From IMG/VR virus record IMGVR_UViG_3300046003_004487, positions 1 through 45,631 of that record: a stretch of 45,631 nt of DNA; one strand, written 5' to 3'. The first letter of the stretch is position 1. Each line of letters starts with the position of its first letter. The translations under genes and the position numbers were made by a program. The stretch is from a virus. Positions 7,586 to 15,396 of the stretch are shown here, piece by piece. A model generated the notes under the pieces. The model made no database searches. It was not told the origin of the DNA and saw only the letters and a program-made list of their open reading frames with translations.

Positions 7586-8461
7586 TTATTGTTTATTAAT
7601 TGCATCTATAATTTTTTGAGTATCAAAAACTTCATACAGGTCGTTATAAGGTATGGAGCTAATATCTTGGAATAATAGATATTTAGAATAATGTGGGTGA
7701 TTTAAATCAGGTGTTTTGGTTGGTTCATTAGCCACAATATTATTATGAATATCATAACCAAACATTTTTGGATTTGTCCCAACCCAAGTCACCACTGATG
7801 GTAAATTTAACGCAGTTGCGATGTGCATCACACTACTATCAATTAACAATCTTTTTGTTGACATACTCAATAATACTGCAATACTTCTAAATGAATCTAA
7901 CGCTTGAAACGTATTTTCATAAATAATTTGGTCTTCTCGTTTAACATGTAAGATAGCATAATCATTTGCAAAATGATTTATAATGTCTTGCATAATTGGT
8001 TGAGGGATATCTCTTGTCCAACTATATTTTAATGGTTGATTAAATGCTCCCCCATGAGGTTGAATAACCATAATTGGTTTATCTAACTTATAGAACCCTT
8101 CAAAGTATTGTCTTTCGGCTTTACTAATAAATAATTCAGGTTTTTCACCGTTGTAATTTAGACCATACATTTCACACCATAATTGAATTAGATGTTTTTC
8201 TTCAGTGATATAATCAGAAGTTGCATATGGGTCAGATACAAACACTTTTGCATCTTTATTTAGAATGTATTTTTCATACACACCACTTATTGTTTCGTGA
8301 GTCAAAACTTTGTTAACATTTGGGTTGTTAACAAAAACGTCCGGATAACTAGTAACTACAATTATATTTGCCTTACTGTATTGTTTTTTTATTGCTTTTA
8401 ATACTGCGGTTCCCAAGATACTTTTACCTAGTCCACCATCTATTTGAAAAATTACATTCAT
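7586..8461 (-). CDS. GT9-like (heptosyltransferase-type) glycosyltransferase
   Basis: A 291-residue GT-B protein resembling glycosyltransferase family 9 (ADP-heptose:LPS heptosyltransferase). The N-terminus has the short strand and Gly-rich turn 'FQIDGGLGKSILGTAVLKAI'. The C-terminal half has 'LLIDSSVMHIATALNLPSV' and 'WVGTNPKMFGY', the family's donor-binding signature, in which an Asp/Ser pair precedes M-H-I-A. It is shorter than cellular heptosyltransferases (about 320-350 residues). It is the last gene of the minus-strand run and starts 1 nt after the stop of the DUF2061 gene. The acceptor is unknown: host LPS or a phage protein. Confidence 0.75.
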   Translation of the reverse strand: MNVIFQIDGGLGKSILGTAVLKAIKKQYSKANIIVVTSYPDVFVNNPNVNKVLTHETISGVYEKYILNKDAKVFVSDPYATSDYITEEKHLIQLWCEMYGLNYNGEKPELFISKAERQYFEGFYKLDKPIMVIQPHGGAFNQPLKYSWTRDIPQPIMQDIINHFANDYAILHVKREDQIIYENTFQALDSFRSIAVLLSMSTKRLLIDSSVMHIATALNLPSVVTWVGTNPKMFGYDIHNNIVANEPTKTPDLNHPHYSKYLLFQDISSIPYNDLYEVFDTQKIIDAINKQ

Positions 8462-8462
8462 A

Positions 8463-8678
8463 TTATTCTTTATTTTTTTTTAATCCAAATTTTATCCATT
8501 TATACCACACTCTTTCGTGTAGGAAATATATTAATGGTTTTATACATAACTCTGTTAACCCTATACTACCTGAAACCCAAAAATTCCCTGTAAATGCGTA
8601 TGATATTAAACAGGTTTGTATTGAACCTAGCATTCTATAACTAACGGCTTTACCTATGTGTCGTTTTATTTCTACCAT
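8463..8678 (-). CDS. DUF2061 small membrane protein
   Basis: A 71-residue protein that fits DUF2061: 'KAVSYRMLGSIQTCLISYAFTG' near the N-terminus (split here only for description) and the hallmark 'KPLIYFLHERVWYKW' near the C-terminus. Two hydrophobic segments are likely to span the membrane. Its start overlaps the stop of the upstream nucleotidyltransferase (TAATG). From memory, DUF2061 genes often sit beside cysC or nucleotidyltransferase genes in bacteria and phages, and that neighbourhood is repeated here. Its biochemical role is not known. A part in sulfur or nucleotide handling at the membrane is only suggested by context. Confidence 0.85.
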   Translation of the reverse strand: MVEIKRHIGKAVSYRMLGSIQTCLISYAFTGNFWVSGSIGLTELCIKPLIYFLHERVWYKWIKFGLKKNKE

Positions 8679-9103
8679 TATAGTTTACCGTCTTTTTTCA
8701 TTTGTTCTCTAATTTTTGTTGCGGAAATGTTTTTAATATCGTCAGGTGGAAAATGTTCATAAACATCATATCCGACACCTCTACCAATGTTAACACTTTC
8801 TATATCCGGAATTACCTGAATTACTAATCTTCCTTCGTCAATTAGGTCTTTTAATTCTTTATTTAAGTTTTCAATAACCCATTCTGTTGAAAATGGATTT
8901 TTATCATCAATTTCAACATCTCTAACGCATAGTAAAATATTTTTACCTCTATCCAATTGTTGGTCAATTAATGCTCTATGACCATGATGCCACGGTTGCC
9001 ATCTACCCACAAACATTGAATATTTTTTATTTGATGATGATGAAGCAAATGCTGCTTGTACGTGTGTTTTTCTTTCCCAATTACCCATTTGTTTTAAATT
9101 CAA
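8678..9103 (-). CDS. Small HxGH-motif nucleotidyltransferase
   Basis: A 141-residue member of the HIGH nucleotidyltransferase superfamily. 'MFVGRWQPWHHGHRAL' holds the HxGH motif (H39, H42), and 'ISATKIREQM' near residue 126 corresponds to the ISSTxxR triphosphate-binding motif. The family includes cytidylyl-, NMN- and pantetheine-adenylyltransferases and, more distantly, ATP sulfurylase. The substrate cannot be read from sequence. The gene overlaps the 3' end of the APS kinase gene by 23 nt if the ATG at 9103 is used; an ATG at 9088 would overlap by 8 nt. Sitting directly after APS kinase, it could supply an activated precursor, but at this length it is much smaller than ATP sulfurylase. Confidence 0.75.
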   Translation of the reverse strand: MNLKQMGNWERKTHVQAAFASSSSNKKYSMFVGRWQPWHHGHRALIDQQLDRGKNILLCVRDVEIDDKNPFSTEWVIENLNKELKDLIDEGRLVIQVIPDIESVNIGRGVGYDVYEHFPPDDIKNISATKIREQMKKDGKL

Positions 9104-9533
9104 TAATTTTGTTTATTATTTCCCCAACAGATTTTTGTTCAATAACATTTGTCGTATTAATGTCCACAAAATTCTCAGTAGGTGGTTCATAGTTTGATAC
9201 ATGATAATCTTCTCTACCTCTAACATCTTCAGTATGAATGTAAAATTCTAATACGTTATGATTGTTTTTAAATTCATCTCGTTGGTCTTTATAAGGTGAA
9301 ACTAATGAGACTATCACATCAAATCCTTTTGAATCTAAAAATAATGAAATGTCTTGAGCTTTCTCAATATTTTTTCTTCTCCCTATTTCAGAGTAATCTT
9401 TATTTTGGAAGACATCTCTAATGTCATCACCATCTACTAATATAACATTACTTGGTTGTAGATAATCTTTAACGTGTTTTGCTAATGTGGTCTTACCAGC
9501 GCCTGGTTGACCTGTAAACCAATATATTGCCAT
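9081..9533 (-). CDS. cysC: Adenylylsulfate (APS) kinase
   Basis: A 150-residue P-loop kinase. The Walker A is 'GQPGAGKTT' (residues 8-16), followed by 'LVDGDDIR' near 32 and 'GRRKNIEKAQDIS' near 50. 'VSLVSPYKDQRDEFK' near 80 matches the 'SPyr.dR' segment of APS kinases. The enzyme phosphorylates adenosine-5'-phosphosulfate to PAPS, the universal sulfate donor, in the cytoplasm. It is somewhat shorter than bacterial CysC (about 200 residues). It lies 19 nt after the sulfotransferase gene in the same direction, so donor synthesis and use appear co-transcribed. A general nucleotide or polynucleotide kinase is a less likely alternative because the DGDD and SPY segments fit CysC. Confidence 0.85.
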   Translation of the reverse strand: MAIYWFTGQPGAGKTTLAKHVKDYLQPSNVILVDGDDIRDVFQNKDYSEIGRRKNIEKAQDISLFLDSKGFDVIVSLVSPYKDQRDEFKNNHNVLEFYIHTEDVRGREDYHVSNYEPPTENFVDINTTNVIEQKSVGEIINKIIEFKTNG

Positions 9534-9552
9534 TCTTTATTTTTTTAAAATT

Positions 9553-10371
9553 TTATACATAACCAAAATAGTCATAAAACCATTTGTAATGATTCTTAAT
9601 ATTCATTGATAGTTCATAACCTAAAACTTCCATATAGTCATCCGGTTTTTTTTCAAATTTTGGTCTTAACTTATGGTCACCATATATCCCATGTACCCTA
9701 TCATCTTCATGAGTTAATTGTGATATGTTCTCAAAATCATGCCCATCATAATTCGGTACACCCAAATATTCGTATATTCTCGACATTTCTTGTTCAGGAT
9801 TACTCATTAAATCTTCGTAACGAATAAATAACATTTTATCGTCAATTCCTTGTTGTATAATATCTAATAATCTATCAATAGAAGTTCCAACAGGTACTCC
9901 ACCCGCCCAAATATCAATACGTTTATTTAATGTCGTACCAATTAATTCTGCCGGTCTTTGAATCCCGTTTTCCCTATGAGGATTTTTTCTAAAATTCTTT
10001 TCCATTGAACTATAGACCGCTCTAACATCTCTAACCATACAAATAATTTTTGGGTTTGGATTTATCATTTCCAATAAACTATAATTGATACCCCATTCTC
10101 TACTTTTATCTATTACGATTGGTTTGTCAGTAAGTCTTTTAAAATAACCTTGCATACCATCTTGACAAAAATCAACAAACGCTTTGGTCATTTCATCTTG
10201 ATTTTGTGCTTGAAATGCTTGAGAGTGATTGTAATTGTTTTTACAGGCGATTACAAAATCCACCAACCCTGATGTTGGTGTTGAGTAAATTTCAGGATTT
10301 TGAGCTAATAAATTCTGAATTAATGTACTTCCACTTCTGGGTAGGGAAGAGTTAAAAAATATTTGTTTCAT
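9553..10371 (-). CDS. PAPS-dependent sulfotransferase
   Basis: A 272-residue sulfotransferase of the Sulfotransfer_1/3 type. The 5'-phosphosulfate-binding loop is 'SSLPRSGSTLIQNLL' (residues 8-22, with R12-S13-G14-S15-T16). The 3'-phosphate-binding segment is 'CMVRDVRAVYSSMEK' (R114, S121/S122). 'FIRYEDLMSNPEQEM' further on is the usual third element. It transfers sulfate from PAPS to a hydroxyl or amine. No signal peptide or membrane anchor is present, so it works in the host cytoplasm. It sits between an FkbM methyltransferase and APS kinase in one operon surrounded by glycosyltransferases, so a sulfated glycan or a tyrosyl/seryl group on a virion protein is the likely product. The acceptor is inference. 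Confidence 0.88.
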   Translation of the reverse strand: MKQIFFNSSLPRSGSTLIQNLLAQNPEIYSTPTSGLVDFVIACKNNYNHSQAFQAQNQDEMTKAFVDFCQDGMQGYFKRLTDKPIVIDKSREWGINYSLLEMINPNPKIICMVRDVRAVYSSMEKNFRKNPHRENGIQRPAELIGTTLNKRIDIWAGGVPVGTSIDRLLDIIQQGIDDKMLFIRYEDLMSNPEQEMSRIYEYLGVPNYDGHDFENISQLTHEDDRVHGIYGDHKLRPKFEKKPDDYMEVLGYELSMNIKNHYKWFYDYFGYV

Positions 10372-10375
10372 TTAA

Positions 10376-11053
10376 TTAAACGTTATATATGTGTATTATT
10401 ATTTCTGTATAGTGTTCTAAAAAATTATCAGACATTAAATTCCATTTTACATTAACACCATCAATCGAGTATACCTCAACATTTATAAAATATTGTAAGT
10501 AAGTGTCTCTAAATTTTTTAAATTTTTCTTTTAAAATTGGTGTACCTAAATGCCATTCACCTGTAATTTTTTTAACATTATTTTTAATAAATTCAAAATT
10601 CTCATCATTAAAAATATCGTATTCACCACCCTCACAATCTGTTTTTAAAAAATCTATGGTTTTTAAATTGTATAACTCACAAAGTTTTTTAAAAGTGATT
10701 CCTTCCATTTGTTTTGAACCCCCATAAATGTCATTACAGTCAGTATATGTGTTGGTATTTGAGATACCCTTCAATATTGGTGTAACCGGATAACCGACAG
10801 TGTTATTAACTAATGTAGGAAATTCATATTCACTCGGTTCAAGACAATATACGTGTTTTGGTTTTTTTGATAAAATACTATAAGTAAATGGTCCAACACT
10901 AGCCCCAAAATCTAAAACAATATCACCCTCAGAAACTTCAAAAAACTTTTCATATATTTTATCAATAAATGTTTCTTGAGTTATTTGTTCTTTATGAAAC
11001 AAACCTTCTTCACTTTGCTCCATCCATCCCCAATCAAAATTAGTTAAGTTCAT
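10376..11053 (-). CDS. FkbM-family methyltransferase
   Basis: A 225-residue class I SAM-dependent methyltransferase. Motif I is 'IVLDFGASVGPFT' near residue 45, followed by an acidic 'YCLEPSEYEF'. 'TIDFLKTDCEGGEYDIF' near 130 is the FkbM hallmark, in which D-x-E-G-x-E lines the active site. Members methylate sugar hydroxyls in polyketide glycosides, LPS O-antigen and glycans. The stop of the 1447-residue enzyme gene overlaps this gene's start at 11053, so translation is coupled. In this context it probably caps or decorates a glycan built by the adjacent transferases. Confidence 0.85.
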   Translation of the reverse strand: MNLTNFDWGWMEQSEEGLFHKEQITQETFIDKIYEKFFEVSEGDIVLDFGASVGPFTYSILSKKPKHVYCLEPSEYEFPTLVNNTVGYPVTPILKGISNTNTYTDCNDIYGGSKQMEGITFKKLCELYNLKTIDFLKTDCEGGEYDIFNDENFEFIKNNVKKITGEWHLGTPILKEKFKKFRDTYLQYFINVEVYSIDGVNVKWNLMSDNFLEHYTEIIIHIYNV

Positions 11054-14000
11054 TATAGTAAATGTTGTATTTGTTTAATAACCATTTCCGGCGTTATTGA
11101 TGTATGACATTCAAATTGTTTTTCAGTCCCTTTATTGATGGGACACCAATTCCAATCCCCTTTATCAAAGGTGAATTCAGGTTTATTCCAACATCCATTA
11201 CAAACTGAACGGTTTACAATTCTAGTACAATTAAGTATAAACTCATGGTCTTCATTTGTAAAGTTAGAAATCATAACAACTTTTTTACCTAAACCCCACG
11301 CTAACCAAGATAAACCACTAGATAAACCAATAAAGAATTCACTATGATTAATCACATTCATAGTATGATGAATTGATGTGTTTTTAATTTTATTTGCATT
11401 ATAAAATGGGTTATCTTCTTTTGACACATTAATAATTTTATAACCTAAATTATGAAGATAGTTAATTAGTTCTTGCCAACCTTCTCTTGTCCAAAATTTA
11501 CATCCCGCAGTTGAATTGGTTGCGATAGTTATATATTTCTGTTTATAAGGTCTTGTGTTAACGGTACTATGTATTGTAGGTTTAATTTCTTCAAAATCTA
11601 AACCTAAAATATTTGTAATAGTTTGTTGTAAAGGTATTGTGTTTGGTAAAATTGGTTCTTTGTTTTTATCATAAAACCACCCAATTGAGTACATAGCATA
11701 AAGATTATGTGTTGTAACTCCGGGCACCACAAATTCAATCTCCGGATATTCATTTTCAAACAAATGATTCCAAAAGGTTGACACAATTACTTTACAATTA
11801 TGTTTCTTTTTAAACTCTAACACATATGGAATCCAAGCAATTGAATCCCCTAATGATTTACTCTCAAATGAGATATAAACTCTCTTATTAGTTAAATCCA
11901 ATGTATTGTCATAAATTACAATATTATCTCTACTCACAACTGCTCTCCATTTGGTGTAATAACTACGACTTAATTTAACCCAATGATTTGGTTTTATTGT
12001 GTTCTCATAATGACAAACACCATTTTCATCAAAGAATTTTACATTATAATCTTTATCACCACTACCTTTTATTTCTAAGAAGGGTTCCTTAACAAAATGT
12101 TGGAGTACTTGTACTTCTTCGTCAATCATTGTTTGTTTTTTTATAGGTTGATTTAGTATTTGTTGATATAATTGGTAATTTTTTTCAGCAAATTCTTTAA
12201 CCCCATATGATGGAAATCCATAATTAATATTATCATTAATTAAATCTAAAAGTTGATTTTTCATATCAAAAATATCACCATAAATTGGTTTAATATACGG
12301 TGTAAACATATCCATATATTGTGGTAAATTTCTTGATAAGATTTTTAACCCATAAGATATTCCTTCTCTTAATACTAATGGGTTACATTCCCAAGTTGAG
12401 TTAAACATTAACACATCGGCTGCCATCATAAAGTCATTAACATTATCTTTCTCACCCCATACTCTAACATTGGTTGGCAGGTCTTTCATTATAGGTTCCC
12501 AATAATTTTGAAAGTTAGGAGCTTGATTCCCAATAAAATGAAATTCTAATTCAGGGTAAACCCCTTCAACTAATCTAGCAATCTCAACACCCTCACCTTG
12601 ATTTTTACCCGATGTCCATAATCCAACATTTATAATGTGAGTTTTGTTTGGGTCTAAACCTAATTTTTCTTTACTACTTTTTTTTGATAATATGATTGTA
12701 GGTGTGTAGGGAAATTCAATTAGTTCACCATATGATGGCATATTAACGAATGTAACTTCTTTATGAAAAGGAGAACAAAATGAATATGCGTCAGGATGAA
12801 ATATTTTTTCTTTATCCGGTTGAAACATTATGTTATGACAAGTTTCCACGACTCTCCATGTTCGGTCATTTTTATAAATAAAATTTATTAAGTTGTTTGA
12901 CAATTTATTATGAGAATCAAACGCTTCAATCATTTCATCTAAATGGATAATGTCAAAATAATTTTCCTCAATAATTTTCTTTAATTCATTCTTATCTTCA
13001 CCTAACGTCCAAAAATGTGACGAAGGTACTAATTCTTTAATTCTATTTTTTTGAACAACAAAATGGTCACTATGATTTGAATATTCCACAACAAAAAGTT
13101 CTGTTTTATCTTCATAATATTCCAATAATGATTCAATCCTTTTTAATAGAAATGATGGCATTCCTCCGGTTGATAGATGTGGTGCCAAGAATAAAACTCT
13201 AATTTTTTCTTTATGATGGTTTTTGATTTTTGATATCATTTTACCCATTTCTAAAATATTTTTTTCTCCGTGAATAAATAACAAACCATCTTTCTTGTTT
13301 GGAATCTTAACCCATAAACTTTCTTCATTAATATTATAATTTGAATAAATATTATCTATTAATTCTAAATTTCCGTTAGCATAAATGTAAGGTAACCCAT
13401 CAAATATTAATTTTTTCCACAATAACACATTTAAGATGGTCTCCTCATTATACGCCGCATAATATGGGATATTATTTAATACTTCAGGGTGAGAACACAT
13501 TTGATACCATTCAGATAAAAAATCAACACATTTTTCATTTGATACATAATAACCTGTTTGTCGGTATTTTTCTCTAACATATTGATTAACATTAAATAAT
13601 TCACATGCCGGGTATTCCAACGTGGTTGACATATCATCTCTAGTCATCGCACCACCTCGTTCACCTACGTGTAGATAATCATAAATCCCTTCAACAAAAT
13701 AAGGATAATCTTTATCATTATCGTATAAGTCAAAGATTCTATCAACATATGGTGTTGCAATTGAATCGCAATCAACAAACGCAACCGTTTTAGTGTATTT
13801 AGATAAAACGTCTTTAGTGATTAATGGTTTTTGTATTAAGATGTTGTAAATTGTTTTATTGGTTCTATTAATATAGAAATTTTCGCCCTCTTGAATGTAT
13901 CTATTGGAATTGTCATCAACTAAGTCTAAATCCCACATTATTGTGACCACATCTTTAATGTTTATCACTTTATCAGAGTTAATTAGATATAAGAAAATGG

Positions 14001-15396
14001 GTAAATCACTATATTCACGAATTGATTTAATACACATTTTAGCAACATCAAAATAATTTTCAGTTGCTAATAATAGATATGATTTTTCTACTTTATTTTT
14101 TAATATTAAAGGTTCTTTTCTTGAGAATGATTTTTCAATTATTTTGTGATGATGAACAGGTGTTGACACATATTGTAATCCAATTTCATTTTCTAATAAA
14201 AATTCTCTAACAGGAGAATCAAAACGATTTGTTTTGTGGATATTCAACAAGTTTAAAATTCCTTTGCTATAAGCGATTGGTCCGGTAACTCTTAATACCG
14301 AATTCTTATCCGCGCCACCAATGTAATTTCTAATATTATCTTTAACTACTTCAATAACATTTTCTAAAAATGGGTGGTTTGGTTTACAGATGATGTGCCA
14401 ATTTTGAAATTCACCAAAATAATATTTTAATTCATCCGCCCAATCTAGACCCTCCCAATGTGTTAATAGATACTCGTCAGTTGGTAATAAGACTTCTTCT
14501 AATGGTTTTGTAGTACAACTTTTAATATCTAAATAAACACCACCAACTTTATACATTAAAAGATATCTAAATAAATCAGCTCTTGCCGACCCATAATTTG
14601 GGTTAATACTTAAATAAAGATTAAGGGTTTCTTCATCATAATTTTCTTTAATAAATTTAACACAATCATCATTATTGTAGAATTTATAGTCAAATGTTGG
14701 GTTCATATCTTTTAACCTTTGAACTACTTCAATTATTTCAGTTGGTAAATCATTAGTTTTATATGTTTGATGAATCACTCTTGGTATTTGAGGTTTAATT
14801 AATGTAATATCACTAACATGTCTTATCATTTGATAATCCGATAGTTCTGAAACTAACTTATCAATCTCAATTTTGTTTGAAACACCATCGTGATATTCTA
14901 ACGTTATTTTACTCGGTATTGGAAAAGAGTGTTCCTTACAATAGTCCAAAAAATCTCTAAAGATAATGTGGTCATGACCTTCAGTGTCAATTTTTAAATA
15001 ATCAACCGACCCAATATTATATGTGTTAATTAACGTTTTCCAACTAATCGTTGGTACTTTTTCAATGGTGACCAAACTATTGTATAGTTCTTCACCTAAT
15101 TCTTTAATCGCAAAAGGGTGGGGATTATTTATTGAGTTACTTCCTCTAACCCACCAAGGCAAGTTATTTTCTTCAATTTTCCAATCATCGATATAATATA
15201 CATCAACTTCACCATCAGTTGTTGATAACGCCGCTTGGACTTTAATGATGTTCTGTTTATCTGGTAATCTATTTATGTAATATTTTATAGGTTCAATACT
15301 AATACCGACAGTCTTGTCATTAGAAGTTTCAATTAAAGTATCAAAATCTGAAGTACCAATTTCAATAAAATCGTAATGTTTGATGTTTAATGACAT
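11053..15396 (-). CDS. 1447-residue multi-domain glycan enzyme: FkbM MT + GT32 + GT-A + GT4 + autotransporter-type heptosyltransferase
   Basis: Domains in order. Residues 1-200: FkbM-like methyltransferase ('DYLKIDTEGHDHIIF' near 132). 203-430: GT32/OCH1-like sugar transferase ('IPRVIHQTYK', then 'ARADLFRYLL' and 'GGVYLDIKSC' at 271-294). 435-710: GT-A domain resembling GT8 ('AFVDCDSIATPYVDRIFDLY' at 539-558). 730-1080: GT4 GT-B ('LFLAPHLSTGGMPSFLLKRI', 'INVGLWTSGKNQGEGVEIAR', 'FNSTWECNPLVLREGISYG'). 1100-1447: strong resemblance to bacterial autotransporter O-heptosyltransferases (TibC/AAH type): a beta-strand lead-in, 'SFESKSLGDSIAWIPYV', 'CKVIVSTFWN', and four cysteines at 1399, 1402, 1418 and 1430 spaced C-x2-C-x15-C-x11-C as in the TibC iron finger. 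No signal peptide is visible, so it is a cytoplasmic polyenzyme. It is the first gene of the minus-strand operon, with an A-rich leader. The last domain points to a protein rather than lipid acceptor. Confidence 0.85.
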   Translation of the reverse strand: MSLNIKHYDFIEIGTSDFDTLIETSNDKTVGISIEPIKYYINRLPDKQNIIKVQAALSTTDGEVDVYYIDDWKIEENNLPWWVRGSNSINNPHPFAIKELGEELYNSLVTIEKVPTISWKTLINTYNIGSVDYLKIDTEGHDHIIFRDFLDYCKEHSFPIPSKITLEYHDGVSNKIEIDKLVSELSDYQMIRHVSDITLIKPQIPRVIHQTYKTNDLPTEIIEVVQRLKDMNPTFDYKFYNNDDCVKFIKENYDEETLNLYLSINPNYGSARADLFRYLLMYKVGGVYLDIKSCTTKPLEEVLLPTDEYLLTHWEGLDWADELKYYFGEFQNWHIICKPNHPFLENVIEVVKDNIRNYIGGADKNSVLRVTGPIAYSKGILNLLNIHKTNRFDSPVREFLLENEIGLQYVSTPVHHHKIIEKSFSRKEPLILKNKVEKSYLLLATENYFDVAKMCIKSIREYSDLPIFLYLINSDKVINIKDVVTIMWDLDLVDDNSNRYIQEGENFYINRTNKTIYNILIQKPLITKDVLSKYTKTVAFVDCDSIATPYVDRIFDLYDNDKDYPYFVEGIYDYLHVGERGGAMTRDDMSTTLEYPACELFNVNQYVREKYRQTGYYVSNEKCVDFLSEWYQMCSHPEVLNNIPYYAAYNEETILNVLLWKKLIFDGLPYIYANGNLELIDNIYSNYNINEESLWVKIPNKKDGLLFIHGEKNILEMGKMISKIKNHHKEKIRVLFLAPHLSTGGMPSFLLKRIESLLEYYEDKTELFVVEYSNHSDHFVVQKNRIKELVPSSHFWTLGEDKNELKKIIEENYFDIIHLDEMIEAFDSHNKLSNNLINFIYKNDRTWRVVETCHNIMFQPDKEKIFHPDAYSFCSPFHKEVTFVNMPSYGELIEFPYTPTIILSKKSSKEKLGLDPNKTHIINVGLWTSGKNQGEGVEIARLVEGVYPELEFHFIGNQAPNFQNYWEPIMKDLPTNVRVWGEKDNVNDFMMAADVLMFNSTWECNPLVLREGISYGLKILSRNLPQYMDMFTPYIKPIYGDIFDMKNQLLDLINDNINYGFPSYGVKEFAEKNYQLYQQILNQPIKKQTMIDEEVQVLQHFVKEPFLEIKGSGDKDYNVKFFDENGVCHYENTIKPNHWVKLSRSYYTKWRAVVSRDNIVIYDNTLDLTNKRVYISFESKSLGDSIAWIPYVLEFKKKHNCKVIVSTFWNHLFENEYPEIEFVVPGVTTHNLYAMYSIGWFYDKNKEPILPNTIPLQQTITNILGLDFEEIKPTIHSTVNTRPYKQKYITIATNSTAGCKFWTREGWQELINYLHNLGYKIINVSKEDNPFYNANKIKNTSIHHTMNVINHSEFFIGLSSGLSWLAWGLGKKVVMISNFTNEDHEFILNCTRIVNRSVCNGCWNKPEFTFDKGDWNWCPINKGTEKQFECHTSITPEMVIKQIQHLL

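Follow-up and report, generated by a model that had tools for sequence, protein, structure and literature searches.

A probable phage sulfation cassette whose compact nucleotidyltransferase may represent an overlooked family of sulfate adenylyltransferases

The virus record IMGVR_UViG_3300046003_004487, analysed over its whole length of 45,631 bases (the window), covers part of the genome of a giant phage with a contractile tail and includes genes for a tail sheath, a tail tube and a B-family DNA polymerase. Positions 8463-10371 of its minus strand encode a sulfotransferase (ST), a lid-less protein resembling adenosine 5'-phosphosulfate (APS) kinase (KIN), an HxGH nucleotidyltransferase (NT) and a small predicted membrane protein of the DUF2061 family. 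This cassette is probably a self-sufficient, phage-encoded sulfation module, in which NT and KIN together act as a minimal 3'-phosphoadenosine 5'-phosphosulfate (PAPS) synthetase that feeds ST. APS is the common element of the main cellular and phage settings of NT, and NT is therefore read as a compact sulfate adenylyltransferase that is neither Sat nor CysDN. The NT of the window may well belong to a family of this enzyme that has so far gone unnoticed.

In the proposed route, NT would convert sulfate and ATP to APS as a compact sulfate adenylyltransferase with no homology to Sat or CysDN at the family level. KIN would then convert APS and ATP to PAPS, and ST would transfer the sulfate of PAPS to an acceptor. 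The first two steps are suggested by gene context and the third by family membership. DUF2061 may be a small membrane accessory, perhaps involved in sulfate supply or membrane tethering.

Results

The genomic setting of NT in cells points to APS. At least 547 relatives were found when genome contigs were searched with the NT profile alone, of which the best 80 were kept; context was counted for 79 of these loci, L142 being left out because no NT frame was called there. NT lies beside an APS-handling enzyme in 73 of the 79. A canonical, lid-type APS kinase adjoins NT in nine loci and is fused to it in 12, in both orders (kinase-NT and NT-kinase), and a lid-less kinase lies by NT in 11 loci outside Pelagibacter. 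In three Nitrospirales loci the neighbour is an assimilatory APS reductase, encoded 25-72 bp upstream of NT, and a kinase is lacking. Downstream of NT, 31 of the 43 Pelagibacter loci carry a gene that we take to be aprM; 30 of these also have aprB and aprA, and 27 of the 31 have no kinase. A kinase is adjacent or fused to NT in seven further Pelagibacter loci. Among representative neighbours, aprA, aprB, thioredoxin-type APS_reductase and apsK exceeded NCBIfam cut-offs, the aprM gene matched qmoC weakly, and a sulfite-reductase gene near a cellular NT was NirA/sulfite-reductase-like, under the cut-off. Six loci (L138, L159, L180, L182, L183 and L191) have no APS enzyme beside NT, three of them with a kinase 2-4 kb away. 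The suggestion, made as an aside in the initial annotation of the window, that the small enzyme may itself make APS thus gains support from context. Two arrangements may be recorded here. Within the Pelagibacteraceae loci L148-L193, NT lies directly ahead of aprM-aprB-aprA in the 31 of 43 counted above, which makes it a candidate for the sat that SAR11 lacks. In an Omnitrophota protein encoded near one NT-APS kinase fusion, a GT2 glycosyltransferase and a sulfotransferase domain form a single chain (L144:1560-3215).

The position of NT ahead of aprM-aprB-aprA in Pelagibacter could also indicate removal of APS. NT would then work in reverse or with another co-substrate (APS and pyrophosphate to ATP and sulfate, or APS and phosphate to ADP and sulfate), and only KIN would feed sulfation, from host APS. 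The sulfate adenylyltransferase reaction is reversible, so the enzyme would be largely the same as the one favoured here. AprBA is believed to work there in the direction of sulfite oxidation, with APS as the product (PMC5069961). However, fusions of NT to APS kinase beside sulfotransferases need APS to be made, not destroyed, and removal of APS as the role of NT is decidedly unlikely.

The association of NT with AprA extends beyond the individual loci. Among 147 Pelagibacteraceae genomes, NT was found in 79, AprA in 68 and both in 59. The two genes lie within 7 kb of each other in 32 of the 59 and farther apart in 27, so adjacency is not the only basis of the association. The Fisher p value for co-occurrence, 2e-14, overstates the association because the genomes are related and partly incomplete. 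The same paper describes "Ca. P. ubique" as having AprBA and lacking sat and cysDNCHIJ, and its table gives cysC in several strains (PMC5069961). Neither Sat nor CysDN was found in 14 of 21 genomes with both a canonical APS kinase and NT, all of them assembled from single cells or metagenomes to an unknown degree of completeness. The CysN search gave matches in 47 of 47 genomes through EF-Tu-like proteins; CysN was counted for three matches over the cut-off and for three more, scoring 242-318 bits, that adjoin a strong CysD-type match, and matches of 195-225 bits in two marine group III archaea were taken as elongation factor. NT was found in one of 247 Bacteroidota genomes and in one of 120 genomes of the family of G018, only the centre genome each time.

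In the Nitrospirales family of G010, NT is present in all four genomes. All four also have a canonical Sat-APS kinase, whose Sat motifs are intact in one genome and altered in three: QTRN reads QTRH or QTRS and, in two, GRDHA reads GWDYA or GQDYA, with the kinase motifs kept. Among four more genomes of the order, the Sat motifs are intact in three and altered in G670. These changes are suggestive, and no more, of relaxed selection on Sat. The Sat-APS kinase motifs were read at loci L208-L210, L212, L196, L199 and L200.

NT (8678..9088, minus strand; 136 amino acids from its ATG) belongs to the HxGH nucleotidyltransferase superfamily by its PF01467 score (27.6 bits, cut-off 21), by the HxGH and ISxTxxR motifs and by its fold. 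The AlphaFold model has a predicted local distance difference test (pLDDT) score of 90.8, and structure comparison places the fold in the PPAT/NMNAT type (Z 9-10). NadM and CoaD share this fold and both motifs; unlike them, NT is shorter before ISxTxxR, carries a family-specific R56 and GRxVGY, and has APS metabolism as its context. Across 55 NT sequences, G28, R29, Q31, H34, H37, N64, P65, G102, R103, G106, Y107, T124 and R127 are invariant, and R56 is conserved in at least 90%. G102, R103, G106, Y107 and R56 lie outside the NMNAT-like ATP motifs. In alignments of hidden Markov models, R56 aligns to a glycine/serine region of nicotinamide mononucleotide (NMN) adenylyltransferases, which carry additional residues ahead of their SGTxxR end. 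With its acceptor side shortened and two arginines particular to the family, NT would be well fitted to a small anion, for example sulfate. In a tree of 58 rows, the NTs linked to lid-type kinases stand apart from all others; the deep branches are weakly supported (78/83). The NT of the window clusters with those of other viruses; a Marinimicrobia NT that lies beside a canonical APS kinase (L121) also falls among them, with weak support.

NT scored below every specific NCBIfam cut-off. It was rejected as NadM (TIGR01527, 29.9 bits against a cut-off of 181.2) and, by hhalign (3.7% probability) and motifs, as a trimmed Sat. Its score against the Sat family PF01747 was 16.6 bits, under the cut-off of 24.3, and it carries GRGVGY rather than the GRDHAG of intact Sat sequences. 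The 50 VIA-align matches listed for NT include no ATP sulfurylase, which excludes nothing, and one Sat-APS kinase chain appeared at rank 34 of the Foldseek structure search. NT finds its best PDB and NCBIfam matches among NMN adenylyltransferases, and phages carry genes annotated as NadM-like, as would be expected if NT were a shortened NMN or pantetheine-phosphate adenylyltransferase that serves phage NAD or coenzyme A supply and lies near sulfation genes by chance. The distance from the NadM cut-off and the APS-linked neighbours of most cellular NTs make this highly improbable.

KIN (9081..9533, minus strand; 150 amino acids) is a member of the APS kinase (CysC) family by its PF01583 score (59.9 bits, cut-off 21.1) and by its fold. 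Its AlphaFold model has a pLDDT of 95.2, and the best PDB matches are APS kinases, with a template-modelling score of 0.85 to 5cb6. The binding loops of the cassette had been described as intact. This is true of the ATP loop of KIN (GQPGAGKTT), of its DGDxxR segment, which together with the GRxxNI segment can be aligned with canonical APS kinases, and of the ST motifs; it does not extend to the KIN lid, RDxKGxYxxA, which is absent.

KIN and NT travel together in phages. NT accompanies KIN in 50 of 52 phage loci fetched with KIN, and KIN accompanies NT in all 60 loci fetched with NT. After dereplication of KIN at 85% identity to 33 clusters, NT lies within 1.2 kb in 31, two of which have KIN-NT as one fused frame, and DUF2061 lies within 2 kb in 19. 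The cassette is not a chance assembly, because KIN and NT recur together in independent phages and cells. PHROG 10255, labelled only "kinase", models KIN-NT as a single fused protein; KIN of the window matches its first half and NT its second, whereas the window encodes the two separately. The absence of an ATP sulfurylase of normal size, remarked on earlier for the window, was borne out in 49 virus records (the window and 48 related ones), none of which had a match above the PF01747 cut-off. Weak PF01747 matches occur in seven of the 49, in frames of 132-143 amino acids; the match in G413, the one located by its coordinates, coincides with NT.

Other genes recur around KIN-NT. A gene for a protein of about 112 amino acids lies between KIN and NT in several phages (L079:5663-5998, L081:5663-5998, L089:5658-5996), and the L079 protein has weak similarity, under the cut-off, to HAD phosphatases. 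A second recurring neighbourhood involves S-adenosylmethionine synthetase, which KIN-NT adjoins in one virus (L106:187-2079); MetK and AhcY genes lie near KIN-NT in several cells (L122, L124, L127, L135, L138, L141). NodU-type carbamoyltransferases are encoded just upstream of KIN-NT in phages with no nearby ST (L087:3883-5436, L011:2788-4452).

ST (9553..10371, minus strand; 272 amino acids) is a sulfotransferase by its PF13469 (79.9 bits, cut-off 27) and PF00685 (63.4 bits, cut-off 22) scores and by two conserved motifs, LPRSGSTL and MVRDVRAVYSSMEK, which we take to be its PAPS-binding loops. Relatives in cyanophages and marine virus records are 26-34% identical. ST lies within 1.2 kb of KIN in seven of the 33 phage clusters, and a PF13469 protein exceeds the cut-off in 16 of 48 whole virus records (18 at E values up to 1e-3). 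ST was accordingly rejected as an obligate member of the KIN-NT unit, and these counts make it a frequent customer rather than a constant partner. The pairing of a PAPS supply with a PAPS-using transferase, as first proposed for the cassette, is thus upheld by gene context, with the reservation that KIN is not a standard APS kinase and that the unit often occurs with no ST nearby. A 2023 paper terms the function of phage sulfotransferases unclear (PMC10580990).

Sulfotransferase, DUF2061 and PAPS-synthesis genes are grouped again in plasmids of haloarchaea and of Mesorhizobium. NT is fused to APS kinase in all nine NT-bearing haloarchaeal plasmids and is annotated as cysC in the eight annotated records. 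The kinase lid is present in six translated proteins and in L228. An ST gene lies upstream of the fusion in all nine, eight being annotated and the ninth recognised by 86% identity to one of them. Six of ten DUF2061 plasmid matches were examined. Four closely related Mesorhizobium symbiotic plasmids (four of four annotated records examined) have the order nodC-nodI-permease-sulfotransferase-DUF2061-cysD-cysN, and the cysN product that was scanned contains an APS kinase domain. CysDN takes the place of NT in this set. Sulfation of Nod factors is the known purpose of the rhizobial sulfotransferase setting, and DUF2061 therefore stands between a sulfotransferase and PAPS synthesis where sulfation is known to be the purpose. 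No sulfur genes were found near DUF2061 in one Bradyrhizobium and one Pseudomonas plasmid.

The four-gene set proposed in the initial annotation is confirmed in place, strand and Pfam gathering scores. NT itself is real, but the 141-residue form given for it uses a TTG start (8678-9103). The ATG at 9088 is the probable start, because relatives align from that position, and from it NT overlaps the KIN stop by eight bases. DUF2061 (8463..8678, minus strand; 71 amino acids) scored 67 bits against PF09834 (cut-off 23.1). The four genes lie in one operon, and the minus-strand order is FkbM methyltransferase, ST, KIN, NT, DUF2061 and a GT9-like gene, continuous from first to last with spacings from a 19-bp gap to an 8-bp overlap. 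The FkbM-type methyltransferase (10376..11053, minus strand; PF05050 34.6 bits, cut-off 22.7; TIGR01444 38.6 bits, cut-off 37.7) is the first upstream neighbour, 4 bp before ST. The GT9-like glycosyltransferase (7586..8461, minus strand; PF01075 23.3 bits, cut-off 22) directly follows DUF2061, as it does in several relatives. A multi-domain protein of 1447 amino acids (11053..15396, minus strand) is co-transcribed with the cassette; it combines an FkbM methyltransferase with several glycosyltransferase domains (PF05050, PF04488, PF01075 and PF00534 above cut-off) and possibly has a role in assembling the acceptor glycan. A GT25 gene is also near the cassette. A glycan is a plausible acceptor of the sulfate because the flanking genes encode glycosyltransferases (GT25, GT9-like and the 1447-residue protein) and FkbM-type methyltransferases; the sulfated glycan would probably be made by these glycosyltransferases and displayed on the virion or host surface. 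Virus records in which the cassette has near relatives are up to 318 kb long.

Discussion

Several observations weigh against a sulfation module with NT as its sulfate adenylyltransferase. The activities of NT, KIN and ST are predictions from gene identity, predicted fold and context. In comparison with canonical APS kinases KIN has no RDxKGxYxxA lid, and it falls under the cut-off of the NCBIfam apsK equivalog TIGR00455 (63.8 against 138.7 bits). The closest sequence matches of NT in PDB and NCBIfam are NMN adenylyltransferases and its closest fold is PPAT/NMNAT, while the hhalign comparison offers little kinship with Sat and the active-site motif is GRWQPWHHGH, not the QTRNxxHRxH of Sat. ST is not near KIN in 26 of the 33 phage clusters, and 30 of the 48 whole records have no PF13469 match. 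Neighbours at phage KIN-NT loci with no nearby ST include a carbamoyltransferase, MetK and a DNA methylase. At the level of the locus, one phage (L051, 4276-6632) combines ST, GT9, KIN and DUF2061 but lacks an adjacent NT. Among the Pelagibacteraceae genomes, 20 have NT and no AprA, and nine have AprA and no NT. Sat or CysDN also occurs in seven of the 21 lid-kinase genomes and in the three Nitrospirales.

Some of these observations would fit the activation of another small molecule for glycan decoration, in which KIN phosphorylates an alcohol and NT couples the product to a nucleotide. APS-kinase-like and nucleotidyltransferase genes are said to act in this way in Campylobacter phosphoramidate synthesis. 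The kinship of NT with NMN and phosphopantetheine adenylyltransferases, the missing lid of KIN and the many phage loci with no sulfotransferase are consistent with such a role. Nevertheless, NT is found with AprBA and with assimilatory APS reductase where no kinase is present, and it is fused to canonical, lid-bearing APS kinases, so that activation of another molecule is unlikely. The reading of NT and KIN as a minimal PAPS synthetase is preferred.

The proposed module has parallels in known systems. Like the NT family, the bifunctional PAPS synthetases (Sat-CysC and animal PAPSS) pair or fuse an HxGH-type adenylyltransferase with APS kinase, in either order. In contrast to them, NT has only about 115-135 amino acids, is NMNAT/PPAT-like and has neither the N-terminal domain of Sat nor its QTRN and GRDHAG motifs, and KIN of the window has no lid. 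The rhizobial Nod-factor sulfation genes resemble the cassette in that a sulfotransferase, DUF2061 and the genes of PAPS synthesis follow one another, and differ in that CysD and a CysN with an APS kinase domain replace NT and KIN.

It is fairly likely that NT represents a third, minimal sulfate adenylyltransferase family (about 115-135 amino acids) beside Sat and CysDN, present in jumbo phages, SAR11, Marinimicrobia, marine Bacteroidota, Nitrospirales, Omnitrophota and haloarchaea. Such a family would fill the place of the absent sat in the SAR11 aprBA pathway, and with it phages would need nothing but sulfate as the starting material for PAPS. A literature search of open-licence papers found no description of the NT family as a sulfurylase. 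If the assignment is correct, one of the entry enzymes of sulfur metabolism also exists in a widespread minimal form that has been overlooked, and the annotation of PAPS synthesis would change, because the fused NT-kinase form is now labelled simply cysC. The fate of APS in SAR11, which has AprBA and no reported sat, would be explained, as would the many marine genomes that have an APS kinase but no visible source of APS. Phages would gain a complete route from sulfate to a sulfated product, which would provide a concrete handle on phage sulfotransferases.

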